A DNA stretch of 44,596 nt from a virus: positions 1 through 44,596 of the IMG/VR virus record IMGVR_UViG_3300038701_002231, one strand, 5' to 3'. Both the position numbers and the translations under genes were made by a program. The notes under the pieces were generated by a model. It was not told the DNA's origin. It searched no databases and worked only from the letters and a program-made list of their open reading frames with translations. Below are positions 7,781-24,853 of this stretch, one piece after another. Numbering within the stretch: the stretch's first letter is position 1; every line of letters starts with the position of its first letter.

Positions 7781-8944
7781 TCAATATATTGATCCGAACT
7801 CGTCTTCTGCGGATGGCCTCGCGTTCGGTCGAGGGTCCGATTCAGGCACCAGTGTCACGCCGGTCGAGATTTTATCAACCAGACCGTCTTCTACCAGTTT
7901 CCCAAATTCTTCTTTACCAATGGCCTTCTCGACCTTTGGCGCTGTCATAAACTTCTGTTCGAAAACTTTTGATCCATAACGTTTTTCAAGCTCTTTCTCA
8001 GCACTCGCCTTATCAACCCACATGCGAACCTCGCGTGTTTTAACAAGTTTCGTACCTGGTAAAGCATTACCTTCCTCGGCCCGTTGCTGGGCCAAGTCTT
8101 TCACCGATTGGCACCATTTCTCGATCAGCTTCACTTTGTTAAGAACAATATTGGCAAGGTCTTCATCCTTAATAAAATTAACCGGCACTGGTTTCGATGT
8201 ATCATCAAATAAATCCATGTCCATTACCTCTTCAACAAATTCAACATGTTTTGGGCACATCGGCTTCGCACGACAGAAAGTGCAGTGCTCACCAACCGCT
8301 AATGGAGCGTCAGGGTCTTCTGTTTTCACAGCTGCCTCAGCAAAATCCATCATCCAATCAAAAAGCTCGTCACGTGGCACATCCCATGTCCGTATTGGAC
8401 CAAGTTCGTGGTATGCGCGAGGTTGAACAATCGTAATACGCAACGTATCCCATTTCTTGTCTTTATAGACTTCAGCCGCACCCAGCCCGTAGCATAGACC
8501 TTGAATGTTGCCTTCAGCATCAACTGGTACACCGCGACCATGTTTATAATCGACCACGTTGAGGACACCATCTTTCAAACCAATAAAGTCAGCTGTACCC
8601 TTTGTGCCTTTGCCAAGAAATGGTAACTGAAGCTTTTCTTCGATCATGTGCTCACCCATGAGAGGGCGGCAATAATCAACGTATGATTCAACAGCATCGA
8701 TCATGTTCTGATTGACTGGAAAACTCATGTCGAGGTCATCCTTATCAACCTTGATTTCACTGCCCTCATAATGGGACGGTACAGTGTCTTCTCTCAGGCA
8801 CCTCTCACCGAGCTCGTGCGCAGCCGTGCCCTCAGCAGCATAGATAGATGACTTGTTTGGTAAGTCTTTCTCCATCCGTGCTGAACCTGGACACGCCCTG
8901 CGCCTAGAAAACGATGATGGGCCGTTTAATGAGTGAGCGCTCAT
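7781..8944 (-). CDS. DUF2800-type PD-(D/E)XK nuclease with Cas4-like cysteines
   Basis: This 387-aa protein has a RecB/Cas4-type nuclease core: EGTAAHELGERCL (38-50), GTADFIG (116-122) and VVDYKHGRG (130-138), with candidate catalytic D119, D132 and K134. C18 together with C221, C224 and C230 could hold an iron-sulfur cluster, as in Cas4 and AddB. It probably acts as a 5'-3' exonuclease in replication or recombination with the adjacent SSB and SNF2 helicase. Its ATG overlaps the stop of the upstream gene (TAATG). Confidence 0.85.
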   Translation of the reverse strand: MSAHSLNGPSSFSRRRACPGSARMEKDLPNKSSIYAAEGTAAHELGERCLREDTVPSHYEGSEIKVDKDDLDMSFPVNQNMIDAVESYVDYCRPLMGEHMIEEKLQLPFLGKGTKGTADFIGLKDGVLNVVDYKHGRGVPVDAEGNIQGLCYGLGAAEVYKDKKWDTLRITIVQPRAYHELGPIRTWDVPRDELFDWMMDFAEAAVKTEDPDAPLAVGEHCTFCRAKPMCPKHVEFVEEVMDMDLFDDTSKPVPVNFIKDEDLANIVLNKVKLIEKWCQSVKDLAQQRAEEGNALPGTKLVKTREVRMWVDKASAEKELEKRYGSKVFEQKFMTAPKVEKAIGKEEFGKLVEDGLVDKISTGVTLVPESDPRPNARPSAEDEFGSIY

Positions 8945-9547: not shown

Positions 9548-10861
9548 TTAATTAAAACCAAGTTCTTCAGACACGCCCTTCTTTCGAATGTTCGCAGCCT
9601 GAATTCGTTCATCAATAGAGCCTTTCAATGTCGCGTAATACCCGACACAAGGTTCTTTTTTACTGAAATGCACCATACGATCCATCATCTGATCGTTGTT
9701 GCCTGGCACCCAATCGGGCTCTACTGAAATTGTTGTTGACGCGGCCCATAGCGGTATGCTGTCGCGTGCAGCTTGGTTTTGACCAATGAAATACTTGCAC
9801 GATGGGTCTGTCTGAAATCTGTTGTATGAGTTTGCTTTCGCTTCTGAGCACATACCGCCGATAATCTGGGCAAACGGGGCATTAAGTTCTGCCTTGATTC
9901 GCTCGATCACTTCTTTGTGATGTGCAAAGATGATAATTTTACCGGCTTGATCAATATTATCTCGACACCACTCAACGACACCTTTGACTTTAGCAAGGCC
10001 GGTCAATCTTCTCAGCGTTGGTGCTTGATCAGCTGCTTTTTGAAGCGCTTTCACAATGTCCTGATCAGATGAAGCAAGTACCCGTTCGACAGCTGCAATT
10101 TCCTCACCTGGTATTCCATCAATCTTACCCTGAACTGGTAACAGGTCAAAACGTGGTTTTTCCCAATCCTGCCACACCTCTTCTTTCACACGGCGTAATA
10201 CACGGCCTCGCATTTGCTCTCTGAGATGCTTCAGGTTCTTACCACCAGTGATCTGAATACCGAAACCGTTATCCATTGTTGTGCAATACGCATTGACGAA
10301 CTGCCAATACGACATCGGGGTGTCATCTGATTTAAGTATTGTATCGGGAAATAAGGCCCGTAGAGCAGGGTATAATTCTGCGGGGTGGTTTAGTATGGGC
10401 GTACCCGTCATAATGTACACACGCCCTGCCCTATCGACAATACCACCTCTTTTATCCATCTTTGGACCGTAAAATGCTTTAGTACGTTTTGCCTTCATAT
10501 TTTTAAAGGCATCTGATTCATCACCACCAAGTACATCGATGTCCATTTTCATCAGCTTCGGGTGAAGTGTGCTCCCAATCAGACCATTGTAACTTAGGAT
10601 GTTAAATTTACCAGGTTGTGGTTCATCCTGGTTTTTCAAGATGACCGGATCGAAACCCCATTCGGCGGCTTCTTTCTCCCATACGAAGACACCAGATGCT
10701 TTCGCCACAACTGCTGTTGTGTGAGAGCCCAAGTCTTTAGCTGCTTTGAGGAATTGTCGGGTCTTCCCAAGACGCATACCGTCAAATAATGCGGCGTATT
10801 TGCGGTTCTTTAAGAATTCAGCACCAGTGCGCTGGTACTCAAATAAATCAGGTTCAATCAT
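9548..10861 (-). CDS. SNF2-type superfamily 2 helicase
   Basis: The 437-aa protein has motif I GMRLGKT (28-34), a DESD motif II (114-117) and MTGTP motif III (151-155). A second RecA-like domain follows, with GKIIIFAHHKEVI and a terminal DQMMDRMVHF that corresponds to motif VI. Such short SNF2 proteins are common beside phage DUF2800 and DUF2815 genes and are thought to remodel forks or recombination intermediates. DESD in place of DEAH, and MDRMVHF in place of the usual DRxHRxGQ, are family variants worth noting. Its start follows the RuvC-like gene after 35 bases, with a poor ribosome site. Confidence 0.85.
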   Translation of the reverse strand: MIEPDLFEYQRTGAEFLKNRKYAALFDGMRLGKTRQFLKAAKDLGSHTTAVVAKASGVFVWEKEAAEWGFDPVILKNQDEPQPGKFNILSYNGLIGSTLHPKLMKMDIDVLGGDESDAFKNMKAKRTKAFYGPKMDKRGGIVDRAGRVYIMTGTPILNHPAELYPALRALFPDTILKSDDTPMSYWQFVNAYCTTMDNGFGIQITGGKNLKHLREQMRGRVLRRVKEEVWQDWEKPRFDLLPVQGKIDGIPGEEIAAVERVLASSDQDIVKALQKAADQAPTLRRLTGLAKVKGVVEWCRDNIDQAGKIIIFAHHKEVIERIKAELNAPFAQIIGGMCSEAKANSYNRFQTDPSCKYFIGQNQAARDSIPLWAASTTISVEPDWVPGNNDQMMDRMVHFSKKEPCVGYYATLKGSIDERIQAANIRKKGVSEELGFN

Positions 10862-12219: not shown

Positions 12220-12554
12220 CCCTCATTCTCCTGTGCTTGGGTTATCATTGCTTTGTACAACAAGAACCGTCCATCTTCTCTATCAAATTCTACATGATGC
12301 GTTTTAAGCGTGCCGCATATAGCATCCGTAGGCTCAATAGGCACTAACACATACCCATTTTCTAGCTTCTCTTGGGTCTTGAGGGCTGTTAGGATTTCTT
12401 CAACATCTTTTTGTAAAGCTTCTTTATCTCTTTTCAGTCTGCGCATTTGATCTGGGTATTTTTCAGCACCGCGATATGTACGACCAATACTCTCTAACAT
12501 TTCGCACCTTATGCGCTCCAAAGCCTGACGCGCTGCTGTGTTTTTATTCGTCAT
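12216..12554 (-). CDS. Hypothetical protein with ARQALERI N-terminus
   Basis: The 112-aa product has a charged coiled-coil-like region (about 10-60) and a compact C-terminal part (GYVLVPIEPTDAICGTLKTH). The first residues (TAARQALERI) resemble the start of its upstream neighbour (SAREALERI), which suggests the pair share an N-terminal motif. It overlaps that neighbour by 11 bases. No function recognised. Confidence 0.6.
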   Translation of the reverse strand: MTNKNTAARQALERIRCEMLESIGRTYRGAEKYPDQMRRLKRDKEALQKDVEEILTALKTQEKLENGYVLVPIEPTDAICGTLKTHHVEFDREDGRFLLYKAMITQAQENEG

Positions 12555-12801
12555 TGGTTGCTTCCTTTATTGCTTGTTCTGCATATTGCTTTAAATGCTG
12601 TACGCGCTGCCCATATTGGTAATCGTAATTTGCGATATACTCCAAAGCCGCCTTGTATTTCTCGGCTTGCTCTAGGGCGGTTTTAATTGTTTCAAAGTAC
12701 TCATCAGCGCCGCCACTAGATGTTTCCCATTCGCTGTAGAAATAAAATGTGCTTTGTATTCGCTCCAAAGCCTCACGCGCTGACGGGGTTTTATTTTTCA
12801 T
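12544..12801 (-). CDS. Hypothetical protein, N-terminal motif shared with next gene
   Basis: The 85-aa product starts MKNKTPSAREALERIQ and is helical, with a Tyr-rich C-terminal half (YIANYDYQYGQRVQHL). I chose the ATG at 12801 because it overlaps the stop of the preceding gene (ATGA); the open frame upstream of it belongs to that gene's other frame. No function recognised. Confidence 0.6.
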   Translation of the reverse strand: MKNKTPSAREALERIQSTFYFYSEWETSSGGADEYFETIKTALEQAEKYKAALEYIANYDYQYGQRVQHLKQYAEQAIKEATNDE

Positions 12802-12962
12802 TCGCTTTGACCCTTTATTAGTAAAACAGTTGCCGCACTTAACCAAACAAGCACAGCTATGAGCATAAGCCCCTCTGCGGGTCTTGCGGCTATTAAACCA
12901 ATTAAAAAAAACAGGGCTGGGGCTAAAATCATAGCCATGCCAATAATAGAATATTTATTCAT
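12798..12962 (-). CDS. Small two-helix membrane protein
   Basis: The 54-aa product has two hydrophobic helices (MAMILAPALFFLIGLIAA and MLIAVLVWLSAATVLLI) separated by a short RPAEG turn. The start lies in a tandem ATG-ATG (12965/12962) behind AGAGAGGGAG; the second ATG has better spacing. It looks like a small inner-membrane protein in the early region and is unlikely to be the lysis holin, which lies in the rightward lysis cassette. Confidence 0.6.
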   Translation of the reverse strand: MNKYSIIGMAMILAPALFFLIGLIAARPAEGLMLIAVLVWLSAATVLLIKGQSE

Positions 12963-13029
12963 CATCTCCCTCTCTTTCTGCCCGTAGGTGGTTAATTTGT
13001 ATTTAATTACTAAAATATTCATGTTACAG

Positions 13030-13212
13030 TTAATCAAACATATTATCAAAATCGTCGTGAAAAGTGCGGTCTGAGAGAGCAGTGATAAGCTGCTCTCTCA
13101 TTTCATCTGACAGGTTATGAAACACACCATCCTTTATCACAACGCAAGCGAAGCTACCTGCATGGGCCGTGTTTTCAAAGTTAATCTGACCGGATTTGAG
13201 CTTATGTGGCAT
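13030..13212 (-). CDS. Hypothetical 60-aa protein
   Basis: The product starts MPHKLKSGQINFENTAHAGS and contains HNLSDEMREQLITALSDR, a soluble helix. Its ATG overlaps the stop of a 49-aa gene (TAATG), which supports translation. No function recognised. Confidence 0.55.
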   Translation of the reverse strand: MPHKLKSGQINFENTAHAGSFACVVIKDGVFHNLSDEMREQLITALSDRTFHDDFDNMFD

Positions 13213-13361
13213 TATGTTAAAATCACTTTTTTGTCTTGATACACCGGCAGGTGTCGTGAGTATTTATTGGGGAATTTTTTACACACCTCAAACCACACCC
13301 ATTTCGGAAGATGCACAGCTTTTCTTTTGTTCCATTTTTGTAATTCTTTTTGGTTCATCAT
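13212..13361 (-). CDS. Small basic protein (49 aa)
   Basis: This short ORF reads MMNQKELQKWNKRKAVHLPK at its start and is Lys/Trp-rich (WNKRK, PKWVWFEVCKKF). Its first ATG overlaps the stop of the upstream gene (ATGATG) and its TAA overlaps the next ATG, so it fills an otherwise empty gap in a fully overlapping operon. Basic and aromatic composition suggests nucleic acid or protein binding (weak inference). Confidence 0.6.
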   Translation of the reverse strand: MMNQKELQKWNKRKAVHLPKWVWFEVCKKFPNKYSRHLPVYQDKKVILT

Positions 13362-13666
13362 TTAAGTTCTTTCTTTTTTGCGTTCATAACCCCGTAAAAA
13401 TTCACGATGTGCTGTAGTGCTTCTTCTGCGTCCGTGTCTTCTGGGACCCATATACCGAGGCCACCGAACGTTGGTCCCTGATAATGGTAAACCACCATTT
13501 CTATTGATTCTGCCGTTACTGTTGACACGCTCGGAGCATCTTGCCGACTGACCGGTATCATTTCACCTGGTTTAAAATCAGCGAACACCACCCTCTTAAT
13601 AGATGATGTAATGAACTCACCATCTTTCGGCCCAAATACGGCTACACCGGTATATTGATCACCCAT
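13358..13666 (-). CDS. Hypothetical protein
   Basis: The 102-aa product starts MGDQYTGVAVFGPKDG and contains YHYQGPTFGGLGIWVPEDTD, with a mixed alpha/beta look. GGAG about six bases upstream of 13666 supports this start over the ATG at 13690. It overlaps the small membrane-protein gene by eight bases and the next small ORF by four. No function recognised. Confidence 0.6.
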   Translation of the reverse strand: MGDQYTGVAVFGPKDGEFITSSIKRVVFADFKPGEMIPVSRQDAPSVSTVTAESIEMVVYHYQGPTFGGLGIWVPEDTDAEEALQHIVNFYGVMNAKKKELK

Positions 13667-13826
13667 GCTTACGCTCCATAAGCTCAGCAAGTTCGCCCTG
13701 CGTGATTAACGGGATCGGTGCATCGTTGTACTTGCTCTGGGCGTAGAAGTACCCTCCGATCAAACCGATTTGCAACATAGTTGCTGATAACAATACGCTG
13801 ATTACAGTCAAAGTTGTCTTATTCAT
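13659..13826 (-). CDS. Small single-pass membrane protein (55 aa)
   Basis: The product MNKTTLTVISVLLSATMLQI continues with a hydrophobic GLIGGYFYAQ and a polar tail TQGELAELMERKHG, so it has one membrane helix at about residues 5-29. GGAG six bases upstream and overlaps with both neighbours (8 bases each) support it. An in-frame ATG at 13829 adds one residue. Function unknown. Confidence 0.65.
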   Translation of the reverse strand: MNKTTLTVISVLLSATMLQIGLIGGYFYAQSKYNDAPIPLITQGELAELMERKHG

Positions 13827-14343
13827 CATTTGCTCCTATCCTATTTATAATTTCGACCATTAAATCATCATGACTCATTGGTGCCAGATCAGTATATTCA
13901 CAGGAAATATTAATATACCGCTCGTCTTTGATTAAATAGCTGTGACAGTGACCATGAACATTCACCTTATATCTATAACCCAGTTGATCAGAGTGACAGG
14001 GATAATGCGAAAACAAAACACCATCTTTCTTGTTTTCCATCATACTGTGCACCGTATCGAACCATCTGAGGTATCTCGGCATTGGTAAAGTGTCGTGATT
14101 ACCCAATATAAGATGTTTCGTCCCGTTCAATTGCTTCATTACAGGGTCAAGCCGAGTTGCCGGTTTAAAACATACATCACCAAGATGATACACCACATCT
14201 TTTGGGCCGACCACTGCATTCCAACGCTTAATCAATTCCTCATCATGCTCTTCAATGGTGTCAAATGGTCGTTTTTCAGCTTCAAACTTTAGAATGTTGT
14301 CGTGGCTAAAATGTGTATCTGATATATAAAATTTCTCGTACAT
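13819..14343 (-). CDS. Small calcineurin-like metallophosphoesterase
   Basis: This 174-aa protein has a complete motif set: SDTHFSH (D9/H11), LGDV (54-57), GNHD (81-84), SHYP (112-115) and HGHCH (130-134). It resembles the stand-alone phage phosphoesterases (YfcE-like size). It is unrelated in detail to the larger enzyme at 1482-2615, so the phage encodes two. The substrate is not shown; nucleotides, cyclic nucleotides or 2',3'-ends of RNA are possible. Confidence 0.87.
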   Translation of the reverse strand: MYEKFYISDTHFSHDNILKFEAEKRPFDTIEEHDEELIKRWNAVVGPKDVVYHLGDVCFKPATRLDPVMKQLNGTKHLILGNHDTLPMPRYLRWFDTVHSMMENKKDGVLFSHYPCHSDQLGYRYKVNVHGHCHSYLIKDERYINISCEYTDLAPMSHDDLMVEIINRIGANDE

Positions 14344-14347
14344 CGTT

Positions 14348-14560
14348 TTATCTCACATCGTTACAGTTCACGTTTCCAATATAAAGATGATCACCACCTC
14401 CACCAGCGGTGCGGCACTCAGTGCCCACCACGCCATCCCATGATAGGAAGATGAGGACAAGTAAGACAATCACAATCAACAGCATCACAAATAACATTAT
14501 CGCACCGAAAACGGCTTGTTGATCTTTAGATTGATATTGCCTATGAGCCCCTGAACACAT
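14348..14560 (-). CDS. Small single-pass membrane protein
   Basis: The 70-aa product has one long hydrophobic helix (AIMLFVMLLIVIVLLVLIFL, about 20-39) with a Cys-containing Gly-rich C-terminus (TECRTAGGGGDHLY). AAAGG seven bases before the ATG supports the start. Function unknown. Confidence 0.6.
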   Translation of the reverse strand: MCSGAHRQYQSKDQQAVFGAIMLFVMLLIVIVLLVLIFLSWDGVVGTECRTAGGGGDHLYIGNVNCNDVR

Positions 14561-14562
14561 GA

Positions 14563-14955
14563 TTAACCTTTCTTTTTAAAGCCGAACACATTGGTTGTGC
14601 TGACCTTATCTACAGTTTTGTACATGCCAAGATCGGCTGTCAGATGGACAACCATGTCCTTAGAAAGAGCAACACGAATCACACCATTCACGCGACCGGT
14701 GCCGTGCTCTTCATATTTATACTCGTCCCATTTCTCGATCACGATAGCGGCTTGGTTTTTTTTAGGTGCATTATAGACACCCTCACCCAGTTCCGTGCGA
14801 ACAATGTGATCGCCAACTTCTGGCATCTCATTAGCGTTTATTTTTTCATCGTACTCATCGAGTGCCTTGACAGCATCCAACCGACACGCGAATGAATTAT
14901 CCTCACCACCGTCTGTCAGTGCTTTCAATAGTGCTTTTTTAATAATGTCGTCCAT
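14563..14955 (-). CDS. Hypothetical protein downstream of the AAA+ cassette
   Basis: The 130-aa product has an N-terminal helical part (DDIIKKALLKALTDGG) and a beta-rich part (VGDHIVRTELGEGVYNAP, then GVIRVALSKDMVVHLTADLG) that could be a small barrel. It follows the CxCx4C protein by 15 bases with AAAGG upstream, in the same unit as the AAA+ ATPase, so it is a possible substrate or adaptor. I do not recognise it. Confidence 0.6.
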   Translation of the reverse strand: MDDIIKKALLKALTDGGEDNSFACRLDAVKALDEYDEKINANEMPEVGDHIVRTELGEGVYNAPKKNQAAIVIEKWDEYKYEEHGTGRVNGVIRVALSKDMVVHLTADLGMYKTVDKVSTTNVFGFKKKG

Positions 14956-14970
14956 AATAGTTTACCTTTC

Positions 14971-15237
14971 TTAGTCTGTTTCAACGAACGGGCCAATCCC
15001 GCAACCCGGTGCTCCACAATAGCAGATGGTGCCACCACTCTTCTGCCGTTGTTTCTTCTTTTTCTTGTTTTTCTTACCTTTGCCCTGCTCTTCAGCTTCT
15101 TTCATATGTTGATCTTGCATAACTTTAGTAAGATCATCGACCAAATCTTTAGCTTCATCGAGGTTGATACCTAGATCGATGCGACCGAAACCCTCATCAT
15201 CGGTTTCATTTTCTTTGTTGTCGTAAATTCCACTCAT
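14971..15237 (-). CDS. Lys-rich small protein with C-terminal CxCx4C motif
   Basis: The 88-aa product has an acidic N-terminus, a short helix (LDEAKDLVDDLTKVMQDQH, about 26-44), a dense Lys stretch (GKGKKNKKKKKQRQK) and a C-terminal GGTICYCGAPGCGIG. The spacing C-x-C-x4-C with CYCGAPGC is the pattern of post-SET zinc motifs in SET methyltransferases, but there is no SET domain here. Its ATG overlaps the stop of the AAA+ gene (ATGA), so the two are translated together. It may be a metal-binding adaptor, nucleic-acid-binding factor or substrate of the ATPase; none is demonstrated. Confidence 0.7.
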   Translation of the reverse strand: MSGIYDNKENETDDEGFGRIDLGINLDEAKDLVDDLTKVMQDQHMKEAEEQGKGKKNKKKKKQRQKSGGTICYCGAPGCGIGPFVETD

Positions 15238-16658
15238 GCTGCTTTCTCCAAATAATTTGATTGGTCTTTGTTATGGTGCTGCTGGCGTGCAATAGCAAAC
15301 ATAATGTCCTCTTCCTGAAGACCCTTTCTACCCTTACCAGCAATCTCACGTCGTATCGCATTGGACACAGCTATATCAATAATACCGACCAACATCGCAC
15401 CATTGATAATATCTCTTAACTTCTGATCACCGACCATGCGGTCATCCGCATATGCGATCTCAGCAACAGCATCAGCAAATGTTTCGATGCTTATGCCCTT
15501 TTGAAGCGGTACACCCTTCAGTGCATGCTGTATGATGATTGATGCATTCTTCTCATCTGGACGTGGTATCTCAATCTTACGATCAATACGCCCGTCACGG
15601 ACAATAGCTGGATCGAGGACATCAGGCCGGTTCGTTGCAATGATCACAATCGCTGCTGAATCATCGAGGCCATCCATCTCGGTCAAGAATGCTGGCACGA
15701 CTGTCGCACCCAGCCCATTCACACGAGAACCACGTGTCGCCAGTATCGCATCGGCTTCATCAATAAAGATAATTGCCGGATATCCATGCTCTTCCTTATG
15801 ACGCTTGGCATCATCAAAGATGTCACGAATAGTTTCTTCCGTCTCACCAACGAATTTATTAAGCACTTCTGGACCTTTAATGTACATGAAGCCGGTCTTT
15901 GCTGCTTTCGTCTTGTGAATTCTGGCAATGCTGTTAGCTGCTGCTTTACCCAGCATGGTTTTACCACAGCCTGGTGGACCGGAGAGCATGATGCCCTTAA
16001 TGAGTCGCTTATTGTAACGTTTAAACAACTCATCATGGAGAAGAGGCATCTCAATGGCTTCAATCATATCAGCCTTTGCATCTTCCAGCCCACCAATATC
16101 ATCCCAAGTGATGTCCGGTATTTTATTCGGACAAAACTTTGATGCTTCAAGCGGGGGTTTACCTAAATGTTCCACTATCTGCAACGACTTGGGATGCAAC
16201 AACACTTCGTCGCCACGCTTCAGGTCTTTGACAGCCTCAACGCGCAATTCCATATTCATTTTCTTCACGTAACACCATTTCTTATCAGGTGATATGCGGT
16301 CAACCTTTTGGAGCATGAGCGGTTCCTTTTGGATACGCTCAAGGACTTCAGTAAGTTCATCGATCTGGTCTTTGGCATCTTTGAGCGCCTCAACAGATGG
16401 GGGTGTTTCTGGTTTTGGTGGGCCAGGTGTGTACATATATGCCTGTCTCTGCACCATTTCTTGTCTCATTGTAAACGGGTCTTTACGTTTTCCCATATTG
16501 CTACCCTCATATTGTCTGATTAATGCATCAACTGCTGAAGACGGTATATTATAGTCCTCAACCAGGTCTTTAAATTTACGCTCATAATACATCTTTTTAT
16601 CGCGTGACGATGCGTCAAGCATTCGTACAATGCAATTTTGTAAATCTGACATGCTCAT
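15234..16658 (-). CDS. ARC/Mpa/PAN-like AAA+ ATPase
   Basis: The roughly 474-aa protein looks like a proteasomal-type ATPase. It has a predicted coiled coil (SVEALKDAKDQIDELTEVLE, about 88-107), an OB-like domain (about 115-165), then an AAA+ core with Walker A GPPGCGKT (about 227), pore-loop region YIKGPEVLNKFVGETE, Walker B IIFIDEAD (about 296) and ATNRPDVLDPAIVRDGRIDR with sensor Asn and arginine fingers. The KGPEVLNKFVGETE and VVPAFLTEMDG phrases resemble ARC/Mpa more than FtsH. There is no protease domain and no C-terminal HbYX proteasome-docking motif (it ends YLEKAA), so it may act as an unfoldase or remodeller. It is the first gene from the leftward early promoter. The start is uncertain (ATG at 16658 or 16652). 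Confidence 0.9.
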   Translation of the reverse strand: MSMSDLQNCIVRMLDASSRDKKMYYERKFKDLVEDYNIPSSAVDALIRQYEGSNMGKRKDPFTMRQEMVQRQAYMYTPGPPKPETPPSVEALKDAKDQIDELTEVLERIQKEPLMLQKVDRISPDKKWCYVKKMNMELRVEAVKDLKRGDEVLLHPKSLQIVEHLGKPPLEASKFCPNKIPDITWDDIGGLEDAKADMIEAIEMPLLHDELFKRYNKRLIKGIMLSGPPGCGKTMLGKAAANSIARIHKTKAAKTGFMYIKGPEVLNKFVGETEETIRDIFDDAKRHKEEHGYPAIIFIDEADAILATRGSRVNGLGATVVPAFLTEMDGLDDSAAIVIIATNRPDVLDPAIVRDGRIDRKIEIPRPDEKNASIIIQHALKGVPLQKGISIETFADAVAEIAYADDRMVGDQKLRDIINGAMLVGIIDIAVSNAIRREIAGKGRKGLQEEDIMFAIARQQHHNKDQSNYLEKAA

Positions 16659-16707
16659 TGGGGAATATCTCGTGTGTTTGTTGAAGCGATCCACATTGGA
16701 TGAAACC

Positions 16708-16736
16708 AACATACGACAACTCGATCTCGTTGTCAA
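16708..16736 (-). promoter_or_regulatory. Leftward early promoter
   Basis: On the minus strand a perfect TTGACA (16736-16731), a 17-base spacer and TATGTT (16713-16708) lie 50 bases upstream of the AAA+ gene. It should drive the 15-kb leftward operon. ATTTCCAACATTTT just upstream (16741-16754) is a motif shared with other promoters. Confidence 0.75.
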
Positions 16737-16759
16737 CACAAAATGTTGGAAATATACAA

Positions 16760-16789
16760 TTGACCGTAGCACGATAAATACTGTATATA
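16760..16789 (+). promoter_or_regulatory. Rightward promoter for primase-helicase
   Basis: TTGACC (16760-16765), an 18-base spacer and TATATA (16784-16789) point rightward, divergent from the leftward early promoter. The -10 abuts the perfect hairpin at 16792-16823, which would form the very 5' end of the transcript. Confidence 0.55.
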
Positions 16790-16791
16790 AA

Positions 16792-16823
16792 AAGAACGCT
16801 CTTCAAAAGAGAAGAGCGTTCTT
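16792..16823. promoter_or_regulatory. Perfect 13-bp inverted repeat in the divergent region
   Basis: AAGAACGCTCTTC (16792-16804) and GAAGAGCGTTCTT (16811-16823) pair perfectly around AAAAGA. In the rightward transcript this would be a 5' hairpin about 50 bases before the ATG at 16873. Read leftward it is followed by TTTATATA and could be a terminator that shields the early promoter from antisense transcription. A protein-binding operator is a third reading. Confidence 0.8.
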
Positions 16824-16872
16824 AACAATGTCTAAGGCAACATTCGTTCAACAAAACTACACAGGGATCATT

Positions 16873-19095
16873 ATGGATCAAATAAACACACAAGGCAACA
16901 CAAAAAGAGCAATTAATTATTTAAAAAGTTTCGGCCCAGACCGTTACTATTCCCTCACGGCGATACATCCCGAATCAGGGCTGACCACATCCGTTACAGG
17001 CCACATTAAGCACGACATCGATGACATCAATGATTTCATTCGTGCGCATAATGATAATCAAAACCTGTACTTTGCCGTGAATGAGCCGTATTCGGACACG
17101 GGCGATAAGAAGCTCACCAAGGACGATGTCTCCACGATACATGCTATATGGCTCGACGCTGATCCAAAGAAGGACCAACCGTTTGATATCGAGCGCACCA
17201 AGCTGCTGAAGTTTGCTGATGAGCTTAACCAGTCATCAAACCCGCCATCGTTCATCAATGACTCGGGCGGCGGTATCCAGGCGTTCTGGTTGCTCGATAA
17301 GCCGCTCGACGCGGACGAGCACCGTGAGTACGCCGAGAGCCTGTCCAGGGGCCTTGCTTTTAAATATGAAACAGACAGTGTTCACAATATTGACAGGCTC
17401 ATGCGCCTACCGTTCACAACCAACATCCCGACATCTAAGAAAAAGAACCGAACCCGCGCACTAGCAAAGCCGCTATATGTGCAGGGTTCACCCGATAACA
17501 TCACCAAATACACCAATCCCGAATCATTCATCAATCCGATCACCGCTGCCGAGGCCAATGAAGTGGATTATGACGTTGATTTATCCATGGAGGAAGATGT
17601 TGCTGGCCCCATCGATGAGGACTTGATGACCAAATTCAAATATGACCTCGATCATAATGAGAAGCTGCATGACATATATTTTGGACTTATCAATAAACCA
17701 TCGCGCTCTGAGTATGACATGACCCTCACCAAAGAACTGAAATGGGCTGGCTACACCATCAAGCAGATCGGGAATATCCTTTACAATTATCCACATGGTA
17801 AGAATGAGAGCATCACGAGGCGAGAAATCATCCGCTGCTATCAGCGCACCGAGAACCCGTTTGATAACTTCAAACTGTCTGATGAGCAGCTAGAAGCCAT
17901 CGAGAAGACCACACCGGTTGAAATAACCCAGCACCGTGAGGACACCCTATCCAAATTCGCTATTCGCAAGCCGTCTAAGCTAAACTGGCGTAAATCTGGT
18001 GATCCTATTTATAAGAACCTATTATATAACAAGGCAATCTCTGTCTGCTACGGGCAATCCAATGTCGGTAAATCATTCGCGGTTGCTGATCTATCGGCCC
18101 GTATTGCGAATATGGACGACTGGGGCAGCTATAAATATAAGTTGAGAGATGCGAAGGACCGCCTGAAAAAGATCGATGTTGTCTATATTTGTGCCGAGGC
18201 CGGTGCCAGCTTTGATAAGAGGATGGAAGCCTTAAGGCGCAAGCTCGGAATGACCGAGCAAGAGTTTGGAGAATTCGGCTTTAATATCATCAATGACGCG
18301 CCGTCATTCGCCAAGGACATGGATGATGCCAAGATGATCGTCAAGCGCATCCGTGAGTTTGAGCATGCCCATAGCCGCACCGTTGGCCTTGTCGTTGTCG
18401 ATACGCTCGCCACCACCTTCCAGGGCGGCAATGAGAACTCATCTGAGGACATGGGTATGTATATATCGAATATGAAATACATCCAGCGCTATGCCGATTG
18501 TGGCGTTCTCATCGTCCACCATTCAGGTAAAGATCAAGCCGCCGGTGCGAGAGGCCACTCATCTCTTAGAGCCGCCACCGATACAGAGCTTGAGGTCACA
18601 TCAGAGAAGGTTGGCAACACCTACCGCAGAGAGATTAAGGTCAAGAAGCAGAGGGAAGGCGAGAACGATACGACAACACCATTCGCTCTCGGTGTCATGG
18701 AATTAGGTAGAGATATTGATGATGATCCGATCACAACATGCTACATGATCCTGGAGGGCGATACGGAATTTGACAACGCTGTGCCCAATCCCCTTGATGC
18801 ATTATCACCTCGTGATCGGGCTGCTTATGATGCTGTCAGGATATATCAAGAGGAAAATATAAACCCCGACAAATACCGTCATACTGAATTACAGATCAAA
18901 CAAATTATATTTTGTGACATTTTCTATAATCGTGAAATAATCGTTCAAAAGTTTGGACAGATTGACTTGTCCGAGCTCGACTTTTTAGCCATCCCAAATG
19001 ATGCCGATCGGAAGAGGTTTGGACATGCTTGGACAGCCTTGGTCAAAAGTGAGTGTCCAAGGGTTTCTGAACAATATCAATTACTTAACGACTGA
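16873..19095 (+). CDS. RepB/AEP-type primase fused to RecA-like helicase
   Basis: The 740-aa protein joins a RepB-like archaeo-eukaryotic primase domain (WLDAD with D95/D97, DSGGGIQAFW at 130-139, NIDRLMRLPF at 172-181) to a RecA-fold helicase: Walker A GQSNVGKS (394-401), Walker B VGLVVVDTLA (504-513) and VLIVHHSGKD (545-554). It would unwind and prime, as T7 gp4 does but with an unrelated primase fold. I chose the ATG at 16873 (AGGGA five bases upstream); the ATG at 16828 has no ribosome site and abuts the hairpin. Codons in the main body look more GC-rich than those of the neighbours, and its 3' end overlaps the TTGGACA repeat cluster. Confidence 0.88.
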   Translation: MDQINTQGNTKRAINYLKSFGPDRYYSLTAIHPESGLTTSVTGHIKHDIDDINDFIRAHNDNQNLYFAVNEPYSDTGDKKLTKDDVSTIHAIWLDADPKKDQPFDIERTKLLKFADELNQSSNPPSFINDSGGGIQAFWLLDKPLDADEHREYAESLSRGLAFKYETDSVHNIDRLMRLPFTTNIPTSKKKNRTRALAKPLYVQGSPDNITKYTNPESFINPITAAEANEVDYDVDLSMEEDVAGPIDEDLMTKFKYDLDHNEKLHDIYFGLINKPSRSEYDMTLTKELKWAGYTIKQIGNILYNYPHGKNESITRREIIRCYQRTENPFDNFKLSDEQLEAIEKTTPVEITQHREDTLSKFAIRKPSKLNWRKSGDPIYKNLLYNKAISVCYGQSNVGKSFAVADLSARIANMDDWGSYKYKLRDAKDRLKKIDVVYICAEAGASFDKRMEALRRKLGMTEQEFGEFGFNIINDAPSFAKDMDDAKMIVKRIREFEHAHSRTVGLVVVDTLATTFQGGNENSSEDMGMYISNMKYIQRYADCGVLIVHHSGKDQAAGARGHSSLRAATDTELEVTSEKVGNTYRREIKVKKQREGENDTTTPFALGVMELGRDIDDDPITTCYMILEGDTEFDNAVPNPLDALSPRDRAAYDAVRIYQEENINPDKYRHTELQIKQIIFCDIFYNREIIVQKFGQIDLSELDFLAIPNDADRKRFGHAWTALVKSECPRVSEQYQLLND

Positions 19096-19221
19096 TTGAA
19101 TGGAGCTTGGACAAGTCATGGACACTTTGGACAGATTTGAGGGAAAGGGTTTGGACATTTGGACAAAGTACTTAAGGTACTGTCCAAAGTCCATCCGGAA
19201 CTTTTTGGAGAAGTTGTCCAA
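18953..19221. repeat. TTGGACA iteron-like cluster, candidate replication origin
   Basis: Ten exact TTGGACA copies lie within 269 bases: direct at 18953, 19019, 19029, 19107, 19127, 19151 and 19159; inverted (TGTCCAA) at 19054, 19181 and 19215. A near copy (ATGGACA) is at 19118. About 0.03 would be expected by chance. The copies at 19150-19157 and 19181-19188 form the outer arms of a hairpin whose inner arms are AGTAC and GTACT. The cluster straddles the end of the primase-helicase gene and the noncoding region after it, the usual place for a phage or plasmid origin. Confidence 0.8.
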
Positions 19222-19228
19222 GGGAATA

Positions 19229-19316
19229 TTTTGGAGAGTTTGGCTAAAAGTGAAAAGGTGTGAAAAATGCAAACCCCGACATTCGGTTTTGAAATGTTTT
19301 GGAGAATTTGGCTAAA
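19229..19316. repeat. Two direct copies of a 20-bp element after the iteron cluster
   Basis: TTTTGGAGAGTTTGGCTAAA (19229-19248) recurs with one change at 19297-19316, 68 bases apart. Between them lies CAAACCCCGACA (19270-19281), a recurrent intergenic element. The region 19096-19403 has no convincing gene; the open frame at 19100-19315 has no ribosome site. Confidence 0.7.
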
Positions 19317-19403
19317 GATGGAAACGGCAAGAATGAGAGACAAAATGATGATAATGCTTTGGGCCGTAATTACAGATCGCCTGGGTGGGGTGAAATAAAT
19401 TGA

Positions 19404-19796
19404 ATGAATGAGATTAAATATAAAACCTGGTTAGAGCGTATCTATGATGTGATGAATGTAAAACGGAATAATCAGTATAAGTGGTTTACGCATCACATGA
19501 TCCAGCAAGAGCTTGGTATTTTGTCAAAAGATAACAACAAAAATACATATCGTTATTTATCAAGGTTGATCCAGCGGGGATATGTTGAAAGAGCAGCAGC
19601 GCCGCAAGAAGTGAATAAAAACGTTCTCAGGCCAAAAGTTGCGGGTTCAAAATATGTTTATAGGCTTACGGGCAGACCTTACAAAGCTAAAACATGGCAG
19701 CTTCGCAATCAGGACGCGCGTGAGTACGATGAAAAGTTTAGACGCAGGCAAGTAGCCAAGAAGTATCCAGAGTGGTTCAGGGAGCTCTTAAAATAG
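19404..19796 (+). CDS. Winged-helix-like DNA-binding protein
   Basis: The 130-aa basic protein contains a plausible winged helix: KWFTHHMIQQELGI (helix), then NTYRYLSRLIQRGYVERAAA (recognition helix and wing, about 47-66), then a Lys/Arg-rich tail. It follows the iteron region and primase-helicase, so it could be an origin-binding or regulatory protein. Ribosome-site support is weak (GGGGTG about 12 bases upstream). The gene is followed by a hairpin shared with the convergent gene. Confidence 0.6.
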   Translation: MNEIKYKTWLERIYDVMNVKRNNQYKWFTHHMIQQELGILSKDNNKNTYRYLSRLIQRGYVERAAAPQEVNKNVLRPKVAGSKYVYRLTGRPYKAKTWQLRNQDAREYDEKFRRRQVAKKYPEWFRELLK

Positions 19797-23051: not shown

Positions 23052-24020
23052 ATGGCATCACCAACACGATATGAACTTTCTTATGATTTCACTGCGTTCC
23101 AGGCATCTGACGCATCCACACCGCTACCAGCGGATCGTATCGAAATTGAGTTCAACAATATTGATACGACCACAGATGAGATTATAGACAATCTCGGCCT
23201 TATTCAAAGAACAGATGGTGCTTTAGCCAATTCAGTAGTTACTCCGGAGGCTTTTTCGTCAAGCGCGTTGGCACTGATGTCTGGTGGATTCAACCCGCGT
23301 GGCGATTGGGCCGACGCTACAACCTACGCAGTTGGTGATTTGGTTGTTGATAGTGGTACTACATACGTGTGTTATATAGCCCACACCAGTTCCGGTTCAC
23401 TCGACTCAAGTAAATTTCTCGGATGGGGTGTTTCGACAACAGCTGGTGCTGTCAGTTTTGCACCGACTGGTACAATTGTTTCAACGACTGTTCAGTCCGC
23501 GATTGAAGAGCTTGACGCTGACAGGGTGGCAAACACGGCTGCTTTATATAAGTTTAATGTATCTACCAATGATACGACACCTGGTAGTTTCACTGAGAAG
23601 ATATCAGCCGGTGATGTGATCACGTTTACTGTTGCTGATGATGGTGCTGATGAAACTCTGACGATATCGGTTGCTGATCAAGCGGTTACACCGGTAAAAA
23701 TTGATCGCACAGTAAATGCGATTGGTGGCATTGGTGGTGGTACACAGGACATTAACCTGGCAAGCGGTCGAACTGTTACAGCGACCATCGATACAAGCTC
23801 AACAACATTCACGTTTAGTAACATTTTATCTGGCGCTGATGCGTTTGATCTTTATCTCACAAATGGGGGTTCACAAACCATTACTTGGCCCAGCAGTGTC
23901 AATTGGGCTGGTGGCACAGCACCGACTTTAACATCTTCCGGTGTCGATCACTTAGTATTTACAACACCCGATGGCGGCACAACTTGGTATGGCTACGTGG
24001 CTGGATTGGATATGTCGTAA
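23052..24020 (+). CDS. Tail fibre protein
   Basis: The 322-aa protein has an N-terminal region of a type found in phage tail fibres (ELSYDFTAFQASDASTPLPA, then IEFNNIDTTTDEIIDNLGLI). A WADATTYAVGDLVVDSGTTY segment (about 85-104) resembles carbohydrate-binding modules. The C-terminal beta-rich domain (DINLASGRTVTATIDTSSTT to GTTWYGYVAGLD) is typical of fibre knobs. It follows the terminator and has only a distant GGGGA ribosome site. It overlaps the glycine-rich gene by one base, so they are probably co-translated and may be fibre and adhesin. Confidence 0.8.
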   Translation: MASPTRYELSYDFTAFQASDASTPLPADRIEIEFNNIDTTTDEIIDNLGLIQRTDGALANSVVTPEAFSSSALALMSGGFNPRGDWADATTYAVGDLVVDSGTTYVCYIAHTSSGSLDSSKFLGWGVSTTAGAVSFAPTGTIVSTTVQSAIEELDADRVANTAALYKFNVSTNDTTPGSFTEKISAGDVITFTVADDGADETLTISVADQAVTPVKIDRTVNAIGGIGGGTQDINLASGRTVTATIDTSSTTFTFSNILSGADAFDLYLTNGGSQTITWPSSVNWAGGTAPTLTSSGVDHLVFTTPDGGTTWYGYVAGLDMS

Positions 24021-24853
24021 TGTTGGAATACCATAGGAAATTACTGCGTGTTGTTGGTAGCCTTGTCTTCACAGAGGCAACAGGCGGCACAATTACGACT
24101 GATGGTGATTATAAAATCCACACATTTACATCATCTGGCACCTTCGAAGTTACAAAATTAGGCGCAGACGATACCGTTGAATACCTTGTGGTTGCTGGCG
24201 GTGGTGGTGGTGGGTTTGATCTCGGTGGTGGTGGCGGTGCTGGTGGTCATCGCACTGCTACAGGTATGACAATTACCCAAACGTCTTATTCTGTGACAGT
24301 TGGCGCTGGTGGTGCTGGAAGTTCATCTGGTTCATCACAAGGTGGACCAGGGGGCAATTCATCTTTTAACGGTATTACCTCAACGGGTGGTGGCGGTGGT
24401 GGATCACGGTCAGCTGTTAAAAATGGTGCATCCGGTGGCTCCGGTGGTGGTGGTTCTAATGATAGCGGTTCTGGTGGTAACGGGACGGGCGGTCAAGGTA
24501 ATAGCGGCGCTTCTGGTGGCAGCTCAAATTCTGGTGGTGGTGGCGGTGCTGGTTCGGCTGGAACGTCAGGCACTCCAAGCACTGTATCAGGCAGCGGTGG
24601 TTCTGGGTTATCAAGTAGCATCACAGGCTCTAGTGTAACACGCGCTGGCGGTGGTGGTGGCGGTGGCGGTGCTGGTGTTTGGCCTGGTGGCTCTGGTGGC
24701 TCTGGTGGCGGCGGCGCTGGTGGCACAAACGCAAACGGCTCAAGCGGCGCGGCTAATACTGGCTCTGGCGGTGGTGGTGGCAGTAGTGCTTCATTCCGAA
24801 ACGGTGGAAACGGTGGTTCTGGTGTCGTAATTATTAGGTATAAATACAAATGA
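24020..24853 (+). CDS. Glycine-rich adhesin-like tail protein
   Basis: The 277-aa protein starts at 24020 in a TAATG overlap with the fibre gene. After an N-terminal beta part with FTSSGTFEV and VEYLVVAGGGGGG, residues about 65-260 are dominated by long Gly/Ser runs and it ends GVVIIRYKYK. Polyglycine blocks with conserved loop boundaries recall gp38-type receptor-binding adhesins that cap fibres, though no homology is shown. The sequence is made of repeated GGTGGT-like codons, which should make it prone to length variation. Confidence 0.75.
   Translation: MLEYHRKLLRVVGSLVFTEATGGTITTDGDYKIHTFTSSGTFEVTKLGADDTVEYLVVAGGGGGGFDLGGGGGAGGHRTATGMTITQTSYSVTVGAGGAGSSSGSSQGGPGGNSSFNGITSTGGGGGGSRSAVKNGASGGSGGGGSNDSGSGGNGTGGQGNSGASGGSSNSGGGGGAGSAGTSGTPSTVSGSGGSGLSSSITGSSVTRAGGGGGGGGAGVWPGGSGGSGGGGAGGTNANGSSGAANTGSGGGGGSSASFRNGGNGGSGVVIIRYKYK

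Follow-up and report, generated by a model that had tools for sequence, protein, structure and literature searches.

What might a phage do with an ATPase of the proteasomal type? In the Pup-proteasome pathway, ARC ATPases form the front end, and a gene resembling them lies in the window, by which we mean the whole 44,596-nucleotide stretch analyzed here, a 44.6-kb virus record. The left arm of the window carries phage DNA polymerase, helicase and exonuclease genes, and the terminase gene is in the right arm, where an ORF at 23885-24853 (+) consists mostly of long glycine-serine runs. The leftward gene block that contains the ATPase also includes a compact SNF2-like helicase (9548-10861, -) and a DUF2800/PD-(D/E)XK exonuclease (7781-8944, -). 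As to the host, the relatives of the terminase and polymerase come from mixed hosts, and the nearest cultured phages with such an ATPase gene infect Brevundimonas, an alphaproteobacterium. The gene and its upstream region are organized as follows.

15234..16658, minus strand: ARC/Mpa-type AAA+ unfoldase, 474 aa, identified by a TIGR03689 match, its position in the tree and an Mpa fold match.
16708..16736, minus strand: sigma70-like promoter TTGACA-17-TATGTT, 5' of the ATPase gene, agreeing at 10 of 12 consensus positions.
16792..16823, minus strand: 13-bp hairpin and then a T run, terminator-like, between the ATPase gene and the divergent primase-helicase gene.
16828 (start), plus strand: divergent primase-helicase gene, beyond the 5' end of the ATPase gene.

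The mechanical ORF for the ATPase begins with a GTG at 16772 and would encode 512 aa; the ATG at 16658 is the better start, because the sigma70-like promoter falls within the GTG extension. The ORF from this ATG to 15234 on the minus strand is real, and all of the sequence phrases quoted from it in the earlier note are found in it. The position that the note gave it, at the head of an operon, is consistent with the divergent layout, with the promoter and with the hairpin at 16823-16792. The promoter match is to be read against a regional total of 17 promoter matches where shuffled sequences give 15.0. Early expression of the ATPase operon is a reading rather than a result, since the promoter matches do not exceed those in shuffles. 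Among terminator-like hairpins, those at 13072-13100 (+) and 16823-16792 (-) are strong, and the interval 12500-19500 contains 14 such sites compared with 6.2 expected from shuffles.

An AlphaFold2 model of the ATPase, computed as a single chain from a 33-sequence alignment, has a mean pLDDT of 88 and, together with the sequence motifs, gives this predicted anatomy.

16437..16655, minus strand: N-terminal helical region, residues 2-74 (AlphaFold2), with lower confidence at 54-59.
16329..16394, minus strand: coiled-coil helix, residues 89-110 (AlphaFold2), placed as in ARC/PAN.
16161..16316, minus strand: single OB-type five-strand barrel, residues 115-166 (AlphaFold2).
15957..15980, minus strand: Walker A, GPPGCGKT, conserved (sequence).
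15846..15857, minus strand: substrate-gripping pore loop KFVG, with the aromatic-aliphatic-Gly pattern in 49 of 51 clade members.
15756..15761, minus strand: Walker B DE, within FIDEAD (sequence).
15588..15599, minus strand: arginine-finger segment RDGR (sequence).

The order of coiled coil, OB-like domain and AAA+ module (residues 180-473) that had been proposed from the sequence is thus present in the model, with one OB barrel. The sensor ATN is present, and Walker A and B, the pore loop and the arginine-finger segment are likewise intact. The C terminus reads SNYLEKAA, which is neither HbYX nor GQYL, and the absence of an HbYX tail had been noticed before.

Several lines of evidence place the protein in the ARC/Mpa lineage. 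Pfam gives nothing beyond a general AAA domain for the ATPase. The best NCBIfam model is TIGR03689 (ARC/Mpa; E 9e-79, 265.5 bits, residues 145-469), which outscores the PAN, Cdc48 and FtsH models and matches across the OB and AAA parts. The score does not reach the equivalog cut-off of 504.75 bits, and the window ATPase is therefore kin to ARC and not the equivalent of a proteasomal ATPase. A sequence search of solved structures puts p97/VCP on top, with both of its AAA domains matched, and matches Mpa over residues 145-469; a fold search with the model returns mycobacterial Mpa chains as top matches (E 6e-28, 35% identity). A maximum-likelihood tree computed from 116 AAA cores unites the window protein with 49 other viral sequences (bootstrap 96, SH-aLRT 72); this group of 50 joins cellular ARC with support of 99/93, and the rows nearest to the window are the viral loci L007 and L001 (100/99). 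PAN (100/100), FtsH (100/100), Cdc48 and Lon all fall outside the viral and cellular ARC sequences. The tree rules out a placement with PAN, which is a clade of its own, and one with FtsH, of which no peptidase domain was matched in the ATPase either. The earlier note had named ARC, Mpa and PAN together as kin, and had asked for family models, a tree and a predicted structure; these uphold the ARC/Mpa part of its claim, and PAN and Cdc48 drop out as nearest relatives. A position within the FtsH, Rep-type or ordinary phage AAA families, which it held would count against the link, is not found in the tree. The phage gene is a member of the ARC/Mpa lineage.

The next question is whether this member still works with a proteasome. 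A GQYL-type tail docks Mpa on the 20S core (PMC8755798). An HbYX or GQYL tail is found in 0 of the 51 members of the viral clade to which the window belongs, and the C-termini of these members are unrelated to one another. Seven other viral ARCs (L035 and L038-L043, on IMG/VR contigs; six of them in the tree) lie within or beside the actinobacterial ARC group and serve as a control. They are probably recent captures, and six of the seven have a GQYL or GMYL tail, the seventh, L043, stopping at a contig edge; judging from these tails, they could dock on a host proteasome. With the pore loop in 49 of 51 clade members and a docking tail in none, as against six of the seven captured ARCs, the viral clade has kept the motor and lacks the docking. 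Neither a 20S proteasome subunit (PF00227) nor the Pup ligase PafA/Dop (PF03136) is found in any of 47 viral records, which include genomes of 436-608 kb and to which the scan was confined; the controls for both were detected. The record of the window has no 20S gene, in line with the earlier observation that no protease gene is present. A further ARC-like gene was seen amid small phage-like genes on L086, a 7.7-kb contig of a Nanoarchaeota MAG that is probably a viral contig binned with an archaeon.

One alternative is a captured proteasomal ATPase with a non-canonical contact to a host protease (HslV, Anbu or ClpP), to which it would pass its substrates. All close cellular relatives of the ATPase are proteasomal ATPases, HslV-type proteins occur in Proteobacteria, and the proteasome model matches E. 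coli and Caulobacter in controls. However, the tail that captured ARC genes keep is missing throughout the viral clade, and the C-termini of its members are unrelated. The idea, also put forward in the earlier note, finds no support in these tails, and we regard it as quite unlikely. Because there is no proteasome and no docking tail, the ATPase most likely acts as a stand-alone, protease-free unfoldase or segregase, as far as its sequence and those of its relatives allow a function to be read.

The more informative part of the locus, missed in the first reading, is the partner gene that follows the ATPase gene and, in relatives, a DUF1360 gene. Downstream of the ATPase the window contains the following.

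14971..15237, minus strand: partner protein, 88 aa, with C-terminal CYCGAPGCGIGP; it adjoins the ATPase gene in relatives too.
15001..15024, minus strand: cysteine cluster of the partner, C72-x-C74-G-A-P-G-C79, similar to the tail in L001, L007 and L300.
14563..14955, minus strand: third gene, 130 aa, soluble, without a family match; it is third in L001 as well (32% identity).
14348..14560, minus strand: fourth gene, 70 aa, with one membrane segment and two cysteines near its end; no significant family match.

The partner and ATPase genes share 4 nt (ATGA), and the partner protein ends in SGGTICYCGAPGCGIGPFVETD. The predicted structure has a disordered start and a helix at residues 26-63, modelled at low confidence (pLDDT 62). 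The pattern CGxPxC occurs in one of the 494 frames of the window. The arrangement is repeated, with a like tail, in L001 and L007, and both a search of viral contigs for the window-type cysteine tail as a DNA pattern and a protein search for relatives of the partner return the L001 contig only; Pfam and PHROG name nothing significant.

This pairing recurs in the clade. Of the non-fused members with a small ORF downstream, which make up the 30 comparable viral loci, 23 have a cysteine pair in the small ORF after the ATPase, compared with 76 of 404 when the other long ORFs of these loci are taken as the starting point (Fisher p=1e-10, a guide only, as the background includes spurious ORFs and the clade members are related). 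By mechanical ORF calling, about 13 of 38 non-fused members have no clear cysteine partner; in L013 and L014 partner-like ORFs were seen by eye beyond the limits of the scan. A typical partner is 62-115 aa long, begins with a charged or glycine-rich stretch, has a helix in the middle and closes with a cysteine cluster. The cluster varies widely (CKC, CVC, CEC, CWC, CGCGC, CCGRSCCGR, CxCGxPxC, CCxxxCC, CGCGG), and little sequence is common to the partners as a whole. A profile built from 12 partners and tested on loci fetched afterwards recovers those of L304 (1.7e-6), L300 (9.1e-6) and L315 (1.6e-5), and places L297, L226 and a second L300 partner within the top 22 of 6593 ORFs. In L312, L300 and L013, two different cysteine-bearing small genes stand in tandem directly after the ATPase.

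A different arrangement is seen in one branch of the clade, which is monophyletic (18 rows, 100/100); the cultured Brevundimonas phages Strzyga and Polewnik belong to it. Most ATPases of this fused branch carry GCGDPxCxxC in their own N-terminus, and their alignment has no recognisable coiled coil or OB domain. Of 11,532 frames in the viral loci, 15 contain the pattern CG[ANDSE]P.C; fused-branch ATPases account for 12, and the remaining three are the partner genes of L001 and L033 and another ORF in L007. From this short pattern we infer that the fused and separate cysteine motifs may be homologous.

The small ORF could alternatively code for a metal or redox protein that has nothing to do with the ATPase beyond a shared operon, as the wide variation of the cysteine clusters and the scant sequence shared among partners would allow. 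Gene order, overlap and spacing are nevertheless kept over a highly diverged clade, and a similar motif is built into the ATPase in the fused branch; we take this to be the least probable of the alternatives considered here.

In the Pup pathway the central helix of Pup binds the coiled coil of Mpa, and the disordered, glycine-rich start goes into the pore (PMC8755798). The partner invites comparison with Pup, and its profile was run against 7170 ORFs of cellular ARC loci: the 30 best matches are all Pup (best E 1.6e-4). With the alignment reversed, Pup still comes first and takes 28 of the 30 best places (E 8e-3). After column shuffling, in 60 replicates, the E values are 1.0 or worse, yet Pup fills up to 23 of 30 places. 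The forward profile is above the shuffles and only about 9- to 50-fold better than the reversed controls. A comparison of partner and Pup by hhalign yields a 17-column match at 39% probability. PF05639 (Pup) does not match the partners of ten relatives up to E 10, nor that of the window at 0.01, and a GGE or GGQ end is absent from the partners, the ends of which contain cysteines. The claim of proven homology to Pup is withdrawn, as the reversed control also favours Pup and one shuffle reaches 23 of 30. The partner is Pup-like in anatomy and not a member of the Pup family, and the likeness in sequence is weak and partly compositional.

These results bear on the possibility that the partner is a true, divergent Pup, attached covalently through its cysteines by a tagging enzyme from host or phage. 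Its size, the glycine-rich starts of several members, the central helix, the place after an ARC gene and the uniform rank of Pup in the forward search would fit. The missing GGE/GGQ end, the lack of a Pup ligase in the 47 viral records and the behaviour of the reversed controls speak against it, and the presence of a similar motif in the ATPase itself is easier to understand if the partner is a fixed adaptor than if it is a covalent tag. We consider a true Pup less probable still than the feeding of a host protease, if not quite as improbable as an unrelated passenger.

In 16 loci the partner gene is directly followed by one for a DUF1360 membrane protein with the motif CxYCxSHW, which occurs in 0 of 2787 other small ORFs of these viral loci. 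The DUF1360 gene is absent from the window, L001 and L007; to call the fourth gene of the window its analogue would be a guess. A scan started from DUF1360 gave 39 further loci, six of which (L297, L300, L304, L312, L315 and L322) have an ARC-like ATPase upstream and, in each case, a cysteine-bearing small ORF between the two genes; L300 combines the window-type tail GGLICICGERGCNIGPF with DUF1360. The ATPase scan added one more new locus, L214/L217. About 32 loci have DUF1360 without the ATPase, and it is thus not specific to the cassette; two of these, L308 and L319, have different cysteine-bearing small ORFs upstream (CGTGGCQCRR and CGMDGCRCKR). The DUF1360 protein of L014 has no match among deposited phages. 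At L306:1-758, on a contig edge, an ORF ending in RGCGC contains a Pup-like helix, VVNDIDEVLADAEQAAEE, and overlaps the start of DUF1360; an ATPase gene would fall past the edge.

The surroundings of the ATPase raise the further possibility that it remodels a phage replication or recombination complex, in the manner of a helper for a helicase or clamp loader. In the window it adjoins polymerase, primase-helicase, SNF2-like helicase and exonuclease genes, and in relatives the recognisable neighbours are mainly DNA-metabolism genes; a census of neighbour functions found only DNA-metabolism and homing genes to recur, with no shared pathway. The cassette is conserved among relatives, however, and the neighbours are not, a DUF1360 membrane protein in the cassette is a poor fit, and the domains are ordered as in protein unfoldases, not as in clamp or helicase loaders. 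This is the best of the alternatives, and it is still unlikely.

A plausible scenario, to which we assign a probability of roughly 55%, is that the ATPase forms a stand-alone unfoldase or segregase ring of the ARC/Mpa lineage, served by a dedicated adaptor of Pup-like build from the next gene. The predicted hexameric ring would grip an unstructured polypeptide end with its aromatic pore loops and, powered by ATP, unfold or extract the attached protein. The partner would deliver the target to the ring: its helix could pack against the coiled coil, and its flexible start could go into the pore. In pupylation the substrate is attached at the C-terminal end of Pup, and the cysteine cluster, at the corresponding position, may hold the target or a metal. 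The DUF1360 membrane protein of many relatives suggests that the complex may be brought to a membrane. More tentatively, at somewhat less than even odds, the clade may represent a phage system of wide occurrence that extracts chosen proteins without a proteasome, by means of an ARC-type unfoldase and a ligase-free, Pup-like cysteine adaptor, often with DUF1360, Pup-style delivery by a helix being combined with a cysteine grip in place of the covalent tag. A diverse phage clade with the motor and a cysteine-tailed partner, and minus the docking, would show how such a motor operates without a protease. The system may uncover a new means by which phages put host proteins out of action or extract them, and it is relevant to the possible origin or reuse of Pup-type delivery. 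The genes are directly testable, including the fused forms of the two cultured Brevundimonas phages.

The ARC family is already known, as are single viral members annotated as proteasome-associated ATPases. In the open-access literature, which excludes subscription journals and preprints, we found no description of a phage ARC/Pup pair, of this viral clade, or of the partner or cassette; one paper terms an Erythrobacter phage ORF 'proteasome' and makes no link to an ARC-type family. ARC/Mpa of Actinomycetota and others shares the coiled coil-OB-AAA order, the pore loop and the ATPase motifs with the window protein; it has two OB barrels and ends in GQYL, whereas the window protein has one barrel, lacks GQYL and belongs to a separate viral clade, and neither 20S nor Pup ligase nor classical Pup is encoded nearby. 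Archaeal PAN and eukaryotic Rpt resemble it in their order of coiled coil, single OB and AAA, but PAN lies outside the viral and cellular ARC sequences in the tree and has a C-terminal HbYX that the window ATPase is missing. Pup is like the partner in size, disordered start, single central helix and a gene near ARC, but it ends in GGE or GGQ and has a ligase, whereas the partner ends in a cysteine cluster and no ligase was found. DUF1360 (PF07098 / phrog_781), of unknown function and found in many phages without the ATPase, shares CxYCxSHW with the third cassette gene in 16 of the first-sampled relatives. Closest among named phage proteins are the ATPases of Strzyga and Polewnik (ON529867, ON529863), called 'proteasome-associated ATPase' in GenBank, which have no separate partner and no recognisable coiled coil or OB domain in the alignment, and which belong to the same viral clade as the window protein, at 33% identity, with GCGDPNCMEC at their own N-terminus.
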